NCBI RefSeq assembly: GCF_000981765.1
Contig: NZ_CP010975.1
Coordinates: 1,674,001 to 1,738,000 of the forward strand
Source: Kangiella geojedonensis
Lineage (GTDB): Bacteria > Pseudomonadota > Gammaproteobacteria > Enterobacterales > Kangiellaceae
Length of the DNA stretch: 64,000 bases
Direction: 5' to 3'
Positions 32,559-37,673 of the stretch are shown here, one piece after another. Below the pieces are notes generated by a model. It was not told the DNA's origin. It ran no database searches and saw only the letters and a program-made list of their open reading frames with translations. A program made the position numbers and the translations under genes. Every line of letters begins with the position of its first letter. Within the stretch, counting starts at the first letter, position 1.

Positions 32559-32580
32559 TAGGGAGAATGTCCTCTCCCTA
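32559..32580. terminator. Hairpin between the ankyrin gene and lysAC
   Basis: TAGGGAGA-ATGTCC-TCTCCCTA (32559-32580), eight pairs with a six-base loop, overlaps the lysAC stop codon. The flanks are AT-rich but not pure T runs. It probably terminates both convergent transcripts, with moderate confidence. Confidence 0.5.
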
Positions 32581-35136
32581 AATACAAACCTCTTCAGCTG
32601 GCTGGCGCATATTGTATTGAGTCGCCATCACACGTCCGTAAGCCCCTGCGTTTTCGATTAGAATTAAGTCCCCTTCTTTTGTTTCTGGGAAAGGAATTTC
32701 AACGCCTAACTTATCTGTGCTTTCACAAATAGGCCCTACGACTGTCGCTAGATGTTCTTTTTCTGCGTAAAGTCGAGTCAGGTTAACGATGTTATGGAAA
32801 GAGCCGTACAGGGCTGGGCGCATCAGCGAGTTCATGCCAGTATTAAGACCGACATAATAATAGTTTTGCTTTTGCTTAACCTGAGTCACTTTAGAAACCA
32901 GCACACCAATATTTGCAGAAATATAGCGCCCTGGCTCAATCCAAAGTGCGTACTGCGGAAACTCAGCTTTGACTTCTTGTAAACTGTGATCGATTTGACT
33001 CATGGTTAACTCAGTTTGCTGCGCTCGTTCTTTAATCCCGAAGCCACCGCCTAAGTTCAAGTACTTCACTCCAGGAAACATTGATGCAGTTTCAGCTAAT
33101 AAACGAGCATGTTCAGCCCAATGCTCATTGGTCAAAATACCACTCCCAGCATGGGCATGAAGCCCGACTACAGTGACATTATGCTTTTCAATAATTGGTT
33201 GTAAATCTTCTAGTTCATAAATAGGTATCCCGAACTTAGAAGTCGCCCCTGCGGTACGCACATTCTCATGATGCCCTTTTCCTATATTAGGATCGACACG
33301 CAAGAAAATTTCTTTACCCTCAAAAATCTCAGGCCAGTGCTTTAACGGGTAAGTACTATCCAAAGTCAGGCGAATACCTTTTTGTAGTATTTCGTCGTAC
33401 TCTCGCTTGTCAGCAAAATTCGGCGTAAAAAAGATCCTACTTTTATCAATGCTCGGGAATAAGTTTAAGATATGGTTCACTTCGCCACTTGAGACGGTTT
33501 CAAAGCCAACACCAGCATCGTAAGCTGTCTGTAGTACGTCACGATTATTGTTCGACTTTACGGCGAAGAATACGCGATCTATCGCACTAATGCTTTGTAG
33601 GTTTTGTATGTTCTGCCGTACCGAATCTAAGTGGTAAATATAAGCGCTATCCCGCTCCGCCAAGCATACCTCAATCGTATCTTTCTTATCTTGCCACCAC
33701 TTTTTAGCCTGTGAAACCGATTCAGTCTGCTTCAACTCTTTCGCCGTAGGACCTAAAATTTCACTATTGGGGTTATTCGTAATCAATAATTCATGCAGCG
33801 CTGAAATCACTTTACTGCTATGTTCATCATCAATAACAAAGGTTAAGTTAAGATCTGATGCTGCTTGCGATAACAAGTACACTTTGTAGGTTTCGAAAAT
33901 TGAAAAGGCAGGTGCAATTTTATGCAAAATAGCACGTACATTTTTGCCCACAATAGAAACCGCAGAACAGTTATGCATCACGTTGACACGACACATCTGA
34001 GACAACTCCTGTACTAATCCTTTCAGCTGCTTTTCGCTCACCACTTGAGTTAAGCTGTCCAAACTAACCGTAATATTGGTCTCAGACGTCGATACTAAGT
34101 CTACAGATACATTGTGTTGCTTAAAAATAGCAAAAATATCGGCTAAGAAGCCAGCCTGTTGCCACATGCCCTGACTTTCCATCGAAATCAAGGTAATGTG
34201 TTCTTTCGCTGTAATGGCCTTAACCATTCCCCAGCTATTTTCTATGCTACTGATAACGGTTCCATCAATATCAGGATCAATCGTCGAGCGGATATACACC
34301 GGAATTTGACTAATTTGAGCAGGACGAATCGCTCGTGGGTGCAGTACTTTGGCGCCAGCTGAAGCCATCTCTTGCGCTTCTTCATAATTAAGTTGCTTTA
34401 ACAGTCGAGCACTCGCCACTTGGTTCGGATTTGCAGTAAAAATACCAGGTACATCGGTCCATATTTCCAATCGTTCCGCTTCTATTTTAGCTGCAAAGTA
34501 AGCTGCAGAAGTATCAGAACCACCACGCCCTAGTAACACAGTTTCCTCATCACTGGTATTGGCTATAAAGCCCTGTGTGATCACAATGGAAGTATCACTG
34601 ACATCCCTCAATAAGTTTTCATCACGTTCAAAGTGACAGCTCGCACAAAGGTAATCCATATTTCGACTTTCGCGAGCATATAAGTATTCACGTGCATCTA
34701 GCCAGCTGACGTTTTCCTCAAAAACTCTACTCAAATAGGTTTGGCCTATTGTCGTTGACCAAAGCTCGCCTTGTGACATGACTAATGCTCTAACGCGGTC
34801 ACTCACCTCGCCAAGTAAATGAATCCCATCAATTAAACGCTTGAGGTAACTGTAGCGCTCCGCCAGTAAATCACTCGGCAATTCCATGTCAGCCAATAAG
34901 TTTTGATGAATATCCACCAGCTCTTTGTAAGCCACATGATATTCCCCTTGTTGCGCTAGCTCGATCAATGCTTCTAGACGGTTAGAAACAGCACTCACCG
35001 CAGAATGGACAACAAAAACGCTTTTCCCTTTGGCACGTTTTCGCTTAATAATACTCGCAATATTGTTCCAATTTTGTCGAGTGGAGACACTAGTCCCCCC
35101 AAATTTAAGCAAATGCCATGAATCGTTTGTTGTCAT
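32578..35136 (-). CDS. lysAC: Bifunctional aspartate kinase / diaminopimelate decarboxylase
   Basis: One 852-residue polypeptide joins the first and last steps of lysine synthesis. Residues 1-440: aspartokinase, with KFGGTSVSTRQNW at the start, GFIANTSDEETVLLGRGGSD and two ACT domains (the first with ISMESQGMWQQAG). Residues about 480-852: a PLP diaminopimelate decarboxylase with the Lys in FFAVKSNNNRDVL, HAHAGSGI, LNLGGGFGI, and the active-site Cys in GPICESTDKLG. The start at 35136 has a GAGG site; the frame runs upstream through a TTG only. The upstream leader holds a promoter, a lysine-rich reading frame and a terminator. A similar fusion is known in Xanthomonas. Confidence 0.94.
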   Translation of the reverse strand: MTTNDSWHLLKFGGTSVSTRQNWNNIASIIKRKRAKGKSVFVVHSAVSAVSNRLEALIELAQQGEYHVAYKELVDIHQNLLADMELPSDLLAERYSYLKRLIDGIHLLGEVSDRVRALVMSQGELWSTTIGQTYLSRVFEENVSWLDAREYLYARESRNMDYLCASCHFERDENLLRDVSDTSIVITQGFIANTSDEETVLLGRGGSDTSAAYFAAKIEAERLEIWTDVPGIFTANPNQVASARLLKQLNYEEAQEMASAGAKVLHPRAIRPAQISQIPVYIRSTIDPDIDGTVISSIENSWGMVKAITAKEHITLISMESQGMWQQAGFLADIFAIFKQHNVSVDLVSTSETNITVSLDSLTQVVSEKQLKGLVQELSQMCRVNVMHNCSAVSIVGKNVRAILHKIAPAFSIFETYKVYLLSQAASDLNLTFVIDDEHSSKVISALHELLITNNPNSEILGPTAKELKQTESVSQAKKWWQDKKDTIEVCLAERDSAYIYHLDSVRQNIQNLQSISAIDRVFFAVKSNNNRDVLQTAYDAGVGFETVSSGEVNHILNLFPSIDKSRIFFTPNFADKREYDEILQKGIRLTLDSTYPLKHWPEIFEGKEIFLRVDPNIGKGHHENVRTAGATSKFGIPIYELEDLQPIIEKHNVTVVGLHAHAGSGILTNEHWAEHARLLAETASMFPGVKYLNLGGGFGIKERAQQTELTMSQIDHSLQEVKAEFPQYALWIEPGRYISANIGVLVSKVTQVKQKQNYYYVGLNTGMNSLMRPALYGSFHNIVNLTRLYAEKEHLATVVGPICESTDKLGVEIPFPETKEGDLILIENAGAYGRVMATQYNMRQPAEEVCI

Positions 35137-35187
35137 CCTCTTATTCCTCAATAGGTATTGTTCAAATTTTTAGTAGTTAATAGGCAT

Positions 35188-35220
35188 AAAAAAACCCGCA
35201 AAGGCTGTCCTGTGCGGGTT
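35188..35220 (-). terminator. Intrinsic terminator in the lysAC leader (attenuator terminator)
   Basis: On the minus strand AACCCGCA (35220-35213) pairs with TGCGGGTT (35200-35193) across a 12-base loop, followed by a run of T to 35188. It lies between the promoter and the lysAC ATG, 52 bases before the gene, so it must act as a regulated terminator for lysAC rather than as the end of an operon. Confidence 0.88.
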
Positions 35221-35248
35221 TTGATATTGGTTTAACTTATCGTTTCAA

Positions 35249-35323
35249 TCACCCACAGCAGAATAGGGCACGTTTTTTAAGTGCCTTTTTGCTGTGTTTT
35301 TTAACGATAAGCTGTATGTTCAT
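35249..35323 (-). CDS. Lysine-rich leader peptide of lysAC (24 codons)
   Basis: ATG at 35323, TGA at 35251-35249. The peptide starts MNIQLIV, then KKHSKKALKKR, and ends ALFCCG. Six Lys codons (five AAA, one AAG) fall in positions 8-17. No Shine-Dalgarno sequence is visible, but the predicted transcription start is at or next to the A of the ATG, so leaderless initiation is possible. Short length and lack of a ribosome site keep confidence moderate; the lysine codons could also come from A-rich loops in a structured RNA. Confidence 0.55.
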   Translation of the reverse strand: MNIQLIVKKHSKKALKKRALFCCG

Positions 35324-35330
35324 GATGTTG

Positions 35331-35358
35331 AATATAGTAAAAATAGAAACTTTGTCAA
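35331..35358 (-). promoter_or_regulatory. Promoter of the lysAC leader
   Basis: On the minus strand consensus TTGACA (35358-35353), a 16-base spacer and TATATT (35336-35331). Seven bases separate the -10 from the leader ATG. It lies immediately after the tadA stop, so lysAC has its own promoter. Confidence 0.8.
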
Positions 35359-35369
35359 ATATAATTTAG

Positions 35370-35849
35370 TTATTTGGTACGGTTGTTATCACGCTTAGCT
35401 TTGAAGAAAGTCTTAAGTTGCTCTGAGCATTGCTCTTGTAACAGGCCTGAACTCACCTCACAACGGTGATTAAACGACGCATGGTCAAGAAGATTCAACA
35501 CGCTACCACCCGCGCCAGTACGAGGGTCCTCAGTTGCATAAACTACCCGAGACACTCTGGCATGCACTAAAGCCATAGCACACATAGCGCATGGCTCTAA
35601 CGTTACATATAAAGTCGTATCAACTAGGCGATAGTTCTCAAGCTTTGAGCCAGCCTCTCGTAAAGCAACGATTTCAGCATGTGCCGTGGGGTCACTGTTT
35701 AGTATCGGTTGATTAAAGCCTTCACCAACGACTTCACCATCTTTCACCAAAACAGCACCCACAGGAACCTCGCCCTTCTCCTTAGCGGTTTCCGCTAACT
35801 CAAAAGCGCGTTGCATGAATTGACGGTCTTGTTCAGTGAAATTGGTCAT
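35370..35849 (-). CDS. tadA: tRNA-specific adenosine deaminase TadA
   Basis: TadA converts A34 to inosine in tRNA-Arg(ACG). The 159 residues carry the deaminase zinc motifs: TAHAEIVALREA (HAE, near 57) and EPCAMCAMALVHARV (PCxxC, near 86), followed by VYATEDPRTGAGGSV, a block typical of TadA. The tail (TFFKAKRDNNRTK) is basic. Length is normal. It sits between guaA and lysAC on the same strand; hairpins precede it and a separate promoter for lysAC follows it. Confidence 0.95.
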   Translation of the reverse strand: MTNFTEQDRQFMQRAFELAETAKEKGEVPVGAVLVKDGEVVGEGFNQPILNSDPTAHAEIVALREAGSKLENYRLVDTTLYVTLEPCAMCAMALVHARVSRVVYATEDPRTGAGGSVLNLLDHASFNHRCEVSSGLLQEQCSEQLKTFFKAKRDNNRTK

Positions 35850-35875
35850 TATTCTTGAGTAACGATGGTTAAGTG

Positions 35876-35916
35876 ATGGGTTACGCTAATCGCTAACCCA
35901 TACTATACGCTATAGT
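35876..35916. repeat. Two adjacent perfect inverted repeats upstream of tadA
   Basis: ATGGGTTA (35876-35883) pairs with TAACCCAT (35894-35901), and immediately beside it ACTATA (35902-35907) with TATAGT (35911-35916). No T run follows either, so they are not ordinary terminators. They would lie in the leader of tadA or in the tail of guaA RNA. Confidence 0.6.
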
Positions 35917-36032
35917 TTGTGGGGAAAGGCTTCTTTCATAAACCACAAAGTATTTATTAGTGAAAAGAAGCATTAGCTTTTTCGATTTATGCTAAGCGGA
36001 AACTCGCGCAAAGAAGGCGTGTACTCATTGTG

Positions 36033-36063
36033 CATGACTGATTGAGCAAGTTTCCAACACCGC
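36033..36063. repeat. Third, weaker copy of the CATGATTGAG repeat
   Basis: CATGACTGATTGAGCAAG followed by TTTCCAACACCGC, downstream of guaA, resembles the second half of the repeat at 37866-37912 (CATGATTGAGTAAAATTC, then TAACAATGC). The resemblance is clear but gapped. Confidence 0.4.
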
Positions 36064-36095
36064 AGAAAATAAAAAAGATATGTTTATTCCGCTAA

Positions 36096-37673
36096 TTATT
36101 CCCACTCAATAGTTGCTGGAGGCTTCGACGAAATATCATAAGTAACCCTCGAAATACCATCAACTTCATTGATAATTCTGCCTGAAACCAGCTCTAGGAA
36201 CTCATATGGTAAGTGCGCCCAGCGAGCAGTCATAAAGTCGATAGTTTCAACCGCACGAAGTGCTACGACGTAGTCATACTTACGGCCGTCGCCCATCACA
36301 CCCACAGAGCGCACCGGCAAGAACACCGTAAACGACTGACTGGTTTTATGGTACAAGTCATGCTTGTACAGCTCTTCGATGAAGATGGCATCTGCGCGAC
36401 GTAATAAGTCAGCATATTCTTTCTTCACTTCACCCAAAATGCGCACACCTAGGCCTGGGCCTGGGAATGGATGACGGTACAACATGTCATAAGGAAGCCC
36501 TAGCTCTAAACCAATTTTGCGCACTTCGTCTTTAAACAATTCGCGTAGTGGTTCGACAAGCTTAAGCTCCATCGTTTCTGGTAAGCCGCCTACATTGTGA
36601 TGAGACTTGATGACGTGAGCTTTACCGGTTTTAGCACCTGCAGACTCAATCACGTCAGGGTAAATGGTACCTTGAGCAAGCCACTTAGCATTCGTTAATT
36701 TTTTCGATTCTTCATCAAAAATATCAACGAAAACTTTGCCAATAATTTTACGCTTAGCTTCTGGCTCATCAACGCCTTTCAGTTCGTCCAAGAAGCGATC
36801 TTCCGCGTCAATACGAATAATGTTTAGACCAAAGTTATCGCCAAACATCGCCATCACTTGATCCGCTTCATTTAGACGCAATAAACCGTTATCAACAAAA
36901 ACACAGGTTAGCTTGTCGCCAATGGCACGGTGTAACAGCATTGCAGTTACTGATGAGTCAACGCCACCAGATAAACCTAGAACAACTTCATCATCACCGA
37001 CTTGTTCTTTAATCTGCTCAATAGCATCATCAATAATATTTTCAGCAGTCCATAAGCGCTCACAACCACAAATCTCGGTGACGAAACGCTCTAACATACG
37101 GCCACCCTGCTTAGTGTGAGTCACTTCTGCGTGAAACTGGATGCCGTAAAACGGTTTTTCTTTATGGGCCATTGCCGCGATAGGCGCATTATCGCTAGAA
37201 GCGATTACTTCAAAGCTCTCAGGAACTTCAAGAACTTTATCACCATGACTCATCCAGACGTCGAGCAATGCTTTACCTTCAGTATTGAATCGATCTTCGA
37301 TACCATCCAACAGTGCGTTAGGGGTATTGATGAACACTTCCGCGTAACCAAACTCGCGCTTATCGGAGCCACCAACTTTACCGCCAAACTGATAGGCCAT
37401 AGTCTGCATACCGTAACAAATACCCAACACAGGAATATTCAATTCAAATACTAGCTCCGGTGCTCTTGGTGTACCTTCGCCTGATACAGACTCAGGCCCA
37501 CCGGATAGGATAATGCCCTGAGGGTTAAACTCACGGATGTACTCGTCGCTAACATCAAAAGGCACCAACTCACAGTAAACGCCAATTTCACGTACTCGAC
37601 GTGCAATAAGCTGTGTGTACTGAGAACCAAAGTCCAAAATCAATATACGATGATCATGAATATCTGTTTGCAT
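36096..37673 (-). CDS. guaA: GMP synthase (glutamine-hydrolysing)
   Basis: GuaA makes GMP from XMP, ATP and glutamine. The 525 residues show the class I glutamine amidotransferase domain with nucleophile Cys in [16 protein letters not shown] (near 86) and the His-Glu pair in [11 protein letters not shown]; the ATP pyrophosphatase P-loop [14 protein letters not shown] (near 235); and the dimerisation domain ending [15 protein letters not shown]. Length is normal. It follows guaB on the same strand with an intervening hairpin terminator, so guaA expression may depend on read-through or a separate promoter. Confidence 0.97.

Follow-up and report, generated by a model that had tools for sequence, protein, structure and literature searches.

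Ribosome-mediated attenuation of amino acid operons is typified by the classical trp, his, thr, leu, ilv and phe leaders. In bacteria, the control of lysine is usually credited to riboswitches, T-boxes or regulator proteins, and the L-box lysine riboswitch controls lysine genes via the 5' leader. Several of the classical attenuator operons are named in PMC2659441. The region upstream of the lysAC gene of Kangiella geojedonensis, which is the subject of this analysis, resembles them in its leader codons for the product of the pathway, in its predicted 1:2, 2:3 and 3:4 alternatives and in a predicted terminator placed before the structural gene; it differs from them in that its effector codons are those for Lys. 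In another respect, it may resemble the Sinorhizobium trpL and Corynebacterium ilvL leaders: in these leaderless leader peptides, the AUG coincides with the transcription start or is one base removed from it (PMC10117765 and PMC11857589), and the Kangiella leader is probably leaderless too. The two are an alphaproteobacterial leader for Trp and an actinobacterial one for Val/Leu/Ile, both with known starts, whereas the Kangiella leader is gammaproteobacterial, is rich in Lys and has a predicted start. On the side of lysine, the nearest mention found is SEP5 of Sinorhizobium, suggested to be possibly a leader peptide (PMC10117765); it contains six Thr codons and three for Lys, and the gene that follows it is one for an aspartate dehydrogenase. 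It differs from the Kangiella leader in being mostly Thr, in preceding another gene and in being given no structures in the accessible part of that paper. The preliminary description of this DNA took lysine control by a leader peptide to be undescribed, and our own search of the open-access literature likewise turned up no lysine leader peptide; subscription papers were mostly outside its reach, such that an earlier prediction is possible. Our best reading is that the mechanism is that of known classical attenuation, with the lysine effector being the element not found in the open-access literature.

We propose, with a probability of roughly 0.86, that this region controls lysAC through ribosome-mediated transcription attenuation, with charged tRNA-Lys as the signal that it reads. 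If true, a conserved Lys-codon attenuator would fill a gap among the amino acids sensed by leader peptides and would show how the last step of lysine synthesis can be controlled in a genus where no L-box was found. Its parts and neighbors, given as positions in the window (the whole 64,000-nucleotide stretch of DNA that was analyzed), are the following:

35370..35849, minus strand: tadA, the upstream neighbor, outside the switch (NCBIfam PRK10860, 219.5 bits, cut-off 150).
35331..35358, minus strand: putative sigma-70-type promoter, by consensus match only (TTGACA at 35358-35353, a 16-nt spacer and TATATT at 35336-35331).
35249..35323, minus strand: leader frame, MNIQLIVKKHSKKALKKRALFCCG and a stop codon, with six Lys codons (from the sequence and the list of open reading frames).
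35303..35313, minus strand: predicted 5' strand of the outer stem, pairing with 35244-35234 (from the fold).
35290..35296, minus strand: segment 1, CACAGCA, the predicted 5' strand of the anti-antiterminator (from the fold, a swap test and covariation).
35267..35285, minus strand: predicted inner hairpin, GGCAC-9 nt-GTGCC, of 5 bp (35285-35281/35271-35267), with Lys codons 16-17 in its loop (from the fold).
35251..35263, minus strand: segment 2, in which TGCTGTG (35260-35254) can pair with segment 1, or TTCTG.C.TGTGGGT (35263-35251) with segment 3.
35234..35244, minus strand: predicted 3' strand of the outer stem, past the stop codon (from the fold).
35208..35219, minus strand: segment 3, ACCCGCACAGGA, the predicted 3' strand of the antiterminator, overlapping the 5' arm of the terminator (from the fold).
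35188..35222, minus strand: predicted intrinsic terminator, AAAACCCGCA.AGG....CCT.TGCGGGTTTT followed by a T tract (from folds).
32578..35136, minus strand: lysAC, for a bifunctional aspartate kinase/diaminopimelate decarboxylase (NCBIfam PRK08961 equivalog, 1221 bits, cut-off 802).

Between tadA and lysAC, the order on the minus strand is promoter, leader frame and terminator. The promoter had been noted before and is indeed present, with 11 of 12 consensus matches in TTGACA-16-TATATT; it is the top of eight promoter-like sites in 33000-37000, a number of sites that is itself the chance expectation (shuffle mean 8.1). Its -10 element lies 7 nt from the ATG of a 24-codon frame, which likewise stands where the preliminary description had placed it, with its six Lys codons at positions 8, 9, 12, 13, 16 and 17 and its stop codon (35251-35249) touching TGTGGGT as claimed. 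The four short complementary stretches proposed at the outset, CACAGCA (35296-35290), TGCTGTG (35260-35254), TGTGGGT (35257-35251) and ACCCGCA (35219-35213), are all at the correct coordinates. A simple terminator scan missed the terminator of the lysAC leader, but folding does give a hairpin with ACCCGCA in its 5' arm, followed by T's, in agreement with the original proposal. The leader together with the terminator folds at -47.2 kcal/mol, where dinucleotide shuffles come to -24.3 +/- 3.2 (z -7.2; 0/200 as good). The folds further add features beyond those first described: an 11-bp outer stem (35313-35303/35244-35234), the 5-bp inner hairpin and a longer antiterminator, in which TTCTG.C.TGTGGGT pairs with ACCCGCACAGGA over 12 bp with one bulged C. 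As to the gene downstream, when the genome of the window is searched with the decarboxylase half of LysAC, the sole match besides lysAC is an exosortase-A-associated decarboxylase (L005:1450-2676; TIGR03099, 546 bits); thus, judging by such matches, lysAC is probably its sole diaminopimelate decarboxylase.

Briefly, the following mechanism is envisaged. Transcription would start at the leader AUG or a few bases off. With lysine scarce, a ribosome would stall in the Lys block and cover segment 1, upon which segment 2 would pair with the 5' arm of the terminator and the polymerase would enter lysAC. With lysine ample, a ribosome at the stop codon would cover segment 2 and the terminator would form; and were there no translation, the 1:2 hairpin, lengthened by the outer stem, would form, with the terminator winning in this case too. 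Here, we infer the transcription start, the translation of the frame, the termination and the response to lysine alike.

This scheme was simulated with a mask in place of the ribosome, covering the 15 nt upstream of the A-site codon and 13 nt counted from the first base of that codon; the RNA was then folded as far as the terminator's 3' arm. The original contention, that a stall at Lys codons frees the antiterminator and a ribosome at the stop codon blocks it, holds in this simulation. With the ribosome at the stop codon, the antiterminator was prevented in 18 of 18 leaders (mean 0.02 pairs); with the ribosome at Lys codons, it formed a mean of 8.6 pairs, and at least five pairs at 89 of 108 codons. 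The remaining 19 of the 108 do not permit it, including the last of the window leader, in which the first five Lys codons permit the antiterminator and the sixth does not. Ribosome-free RNA gave a mean of 2.5 antiterminator pairs, the low figure being due to the formation of 1:2; the exceptions are L007, L021 and L022, where the free RNA already favors 2:3. In this model, lysine specificity rests on codon content rather than on geometry, since stalls at non-Lys codons within the first two thirds also permit the antiterminator in most leaders.

The comparison within the genus covered 20 Kangiella genomes, including K. taiwanensis, K. spongicola and K. aquimarina. The lysAC fusion is present in 19 of these (E 1e-150), and at all 19 loci, it is preceded by a short Lys-containing frame and then an intrinsic terminator, the latter judged between leader and gene by folding and sequence only; in one genome (G010), the leader is split, with the start on one contig and the rest on another. 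Relatives with a broken frame or lost Lys codons but persisting stems, which the preliminary description had named as evidence against itself, were not seen among the 19, with the frame open and Lys kept in each, while the stems differ in sequence and for the most part still pair. The leaders have 3-8 Lys codons, with 5-8 in 18 of 19 (the split one counted), and each of them ends 5 to 9 residues past its last Lys. Those of L009, L010 and L012 exceed that of the window by 24, 12 and 12 nt, all multiples of three. The exceptional leader with three Lys (L022:4073-4220, MNCIFVNAQIAMKQMMKMSKQDVPIVCAR) has four Met besides the start; it could have drifted toward methionine, another product of the aspartate family. 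The leader adjoins lysAC even in L019, L020 and L023, where the end of tadA is 651 nt (the first two) and ~1.2 kb away. In the terminator, seven of eight consensus pairs are kept in 18/18 aligned sequences and the innermost in 16, the other two having a gap.

Without exception, each of the 18 complete leaders has more Lys in its own frame than in either of the other two. For the window leader, finding six Lys in the 23 residues after Met has a P of 0.0017 if the 5.8% Lys of six window proteins is taken as background; under a stricter null, which preserves the A-rich dinucleotides, its count is reached in 25/1000. Against such a dinucleotide null, the enrichment is below the 5% level in only 8 of the 18 leaders, this weakness per species arising because the null inherits the A-rich codons.

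The one Kangiella genome without lysAC (G016, L049) has no leader within the 800 nt read behind tadA, where another frame is found. We built a covariance model, R1, from the 18 leaders, which it matches by construction, whereas its match in G010 was not in the model; in G016, it gives only weak matches (best E 0.04). One single-domain aspartokinase-like match (35%) and one decarboxylase-domain match (24%) are what remain in the latter genome; hence, on the strength of these matches, this organism may need lysine. Eight weaker matches of R1 were read: four are a Trp leader (in the genome of the window, G000, at 1508518, and in G003, G017 and G012) and one is a WWW leader in G036; the G010 match is a contig-edge piece of the lysAC leader, and those in G000 (455380) and G038 are coding ends followed by a terminator.

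In the best promoter match, the distance from the -10 to the ATG is 6-8 nt in 18 of 19 Kangiella loci (the exception being L018), with the -10 itself poor in L019 and L020; because the frame starts this close to the -10, the transcript of the lysAC leader is probably leaderless. No ribosome-binding site was seen by eye just before the leader ATG in the Kangiella loci. A single pattern search of the genome of the window for this layout returned 17 matches as against 11 for a reversed-pattern control; judged by eye, a short frame and then a terminator come after three of the 17, namely at the Lys leader, MIIFNTTTTTTTIFPREVDG and MKTLYVKNVWWWHVT. Because the Lys and Thr leaders had supplied the pattern and the Trp leader had already been recognized, the recovery of these three is no independent test. 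The Thr leader, MIIFNTTTTTTTIFPREVDG up to its stop codon (L003:1324-1386), and its terminator precede a thrA-type gene (PRK09436, 939 bits), and its promoter at G000:C1:2026390, read by eye as TTGACA-17-TAATCT-7 nt-ATG, makes it leaderless in layout too. Likewise leaderless in layout is the Trp leader, MKTLYVKNVWWWHVT up to its stop codon, with its terminator (L108/L126, G000:C1:1508518-1508672); counterparts of it occur in L109-L111, and L112, from another genus, has a WWW frame. What follows the Trp frame in relatives is a DAHP synthase-like gene: the fragment tested, from G003, matches PRK08673 at 203 bits, where the cut-off for the whole protein is 335. With Lys, Thr and Trp leaders of like build in one genome, leaderless leader peptides seem to be a general device in Kangiella, and this common build makes attenuation in the absence of a Shine-Dalgarno site open to testing in Gammaproteobacteria.

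These sister leaders bear on the alternative that survives best, although we consider it unlikely: that the nascent basic peptide, or the slow decoding of A-runs, pauses the ribosome regardless of lysine, such that the attenuation would report the general speed of translation. Poly-Lys is known to slow ribosomes, AAA-AAA pairs recur among the leaders, and the masking simulation by itself makes no demand for lysine. However, Lys is not replaced by Arg: the Lys:Arg ratio is 108:15 in the 18 complete leaders as against 198:190 in the six window proteins. Further, AAA and AAG replace one another among the 108 Lys codons (74 and 34, respectively), and those of L019/L020 are scattered rather than bunched. 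The gene thought of as controlled makes lysine, and its genome also has the sister leaders with many codons for Thr, in front of the thrA-type gene, and for Trp.

The preliminary description had looked to covarying stems in related genomes as a check; this was borne out for the anti-antiterminator hairpin, which covaries, but not for the antiterminator, which is conserved without covariation. The anti-antiterminator helix differs by lineage, being CACAGCA/TGCTGTG in the window, CCAAGCA/TGCTTGG in L018 and CTTGTAAT/ATTGCGGG in L023. In a swap test of the hairpin including the inner stem, with 10 representatives, own partners did better, with 2/20,000 permutations as good; for segments 1:2 taken without the inner hairpin, the signal falls to 178/20,000. 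Across 12 alignable sequences, the structure has 16 double-change cells versus 7.6 in shuffles (0/500 as high) and 82% of its cells paired versus 33-48% when slid, two of the five measures being no better than shuffles (pairs with a double change, 117/500; pair types, 279/500). The double changes in these sequences lie in the outer stem and the inner hairpin, with none in the seven pairs of segments 1:2. The main helix of the outer stem has changes on both sides at 5 of 10 pairs and 74% of its cells paired in the 12, and the inner hairpin keeps its five pairs in 18/18 sequences, four of them with changes on both sides. For the antiterminator (2:3), the same 12 sequences gave no double changes and no excess over shuffles, though 88% of cells are paired; six of its twelve pairs are invariant, and its swap test is not significant (2775/20,000). 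The leader frame folds better than its synonymous recodings at no more than 50/1000 in 11 of 18 cases, and its pairing with segment 3 does so in 8 of 18, the window leader not being among the latter (229/1000).

A gene for a small, Lys-rich protein that ends at a terminator of its own, lysAC being reached by read-through with no control by lysine, would account for a conserved frame with its own promoter and terminator. Yet the peptide varies widely across the 18 complete leaders except in its block of Lys and at a Cys close to its end, the hairpin overlapping the frame covaries and no leader lies in the 800 nt read behind tadA where lysAC is absent, all of which make this highly improbable. 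More improbable still is that Rfam fails to recognize a strongly diverged lysine riboswitch or T-box. The function of the gene would fit it, and the L-box is alike in controlling a lysine gene through its 5' leader; but the L-box model (RF00168) has no match in the window or in any of the 20 Kangiella genomes, while 4 of 14 control genomes were positive, and among the Rfam amino acid leaders, T-box and other families, the only match in the window at gathering score is a tRNA. Further, the conserved parts are coding and complementary stretches. Least credible is chance, an A-rich stretch with a tadA terminator that happens to contain a frame: the Lys count by itself is only moderately unusual for the A-rich composition, but this explanation is contradicted by conservation at 19/19 loci, including the three with tadA 0.65-1.2 kb off, by the swap and covariation tests and by the z of -7.2.

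LysAC loci beyond Kangiella were read as well. By eye, no Lys leader was seen within the final 420 nt at L036-L038 and L040-L042, six loci from the same family (the upstream part of L039 being too short), or at three lysAC loci of family f14. A class scan found the fusion in 14 of 369 genomes, that of the window included. One of the 13 class-level loci, L056, has a Lys-containing frame and then a terminator; the frames with at least three Lys in L054, L055 and L058 were rejected as leaders, as no terminator was seen after them. All three lysAC loci among the 19 genomes of the order of L056 belong to genus g342 (L056, L064 and L065) and have Lys-containing frames, with 5, 3 and 6 Lys, and GCCGG-type terminators, unlike the Kangiella leader; the masking simulation is less clear for them. 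In family f187, the fusion occurs in 65 of 101 genomes. It is tentatively possible, though we would not lean on it, that Gammaproteobacteria evolved Lys-codon attenuation of lysAC on more than one occasion, in the leaderless form of Kangiella and in the unrelated frames at 3/3 loci of g342, and that in f187, lysAC is run by a conserved, Lys-poor short peptide ending in MARQR.VG..G, maybe acting as a peptide. The f187 loci read were L053 and L066-L095 (30 of the 65, plus L053): 23 of these 31, or 24 with the variant of L071, have a frame with a MARQR.VG-like end and then a terminator, mostly with 1-4 Lys. The conservation of this peptide suggests a role for the peptide itself or for the RNA that overlaps it, and R1 matches some of the f187 loci only weakly (E 0.02 and worse).
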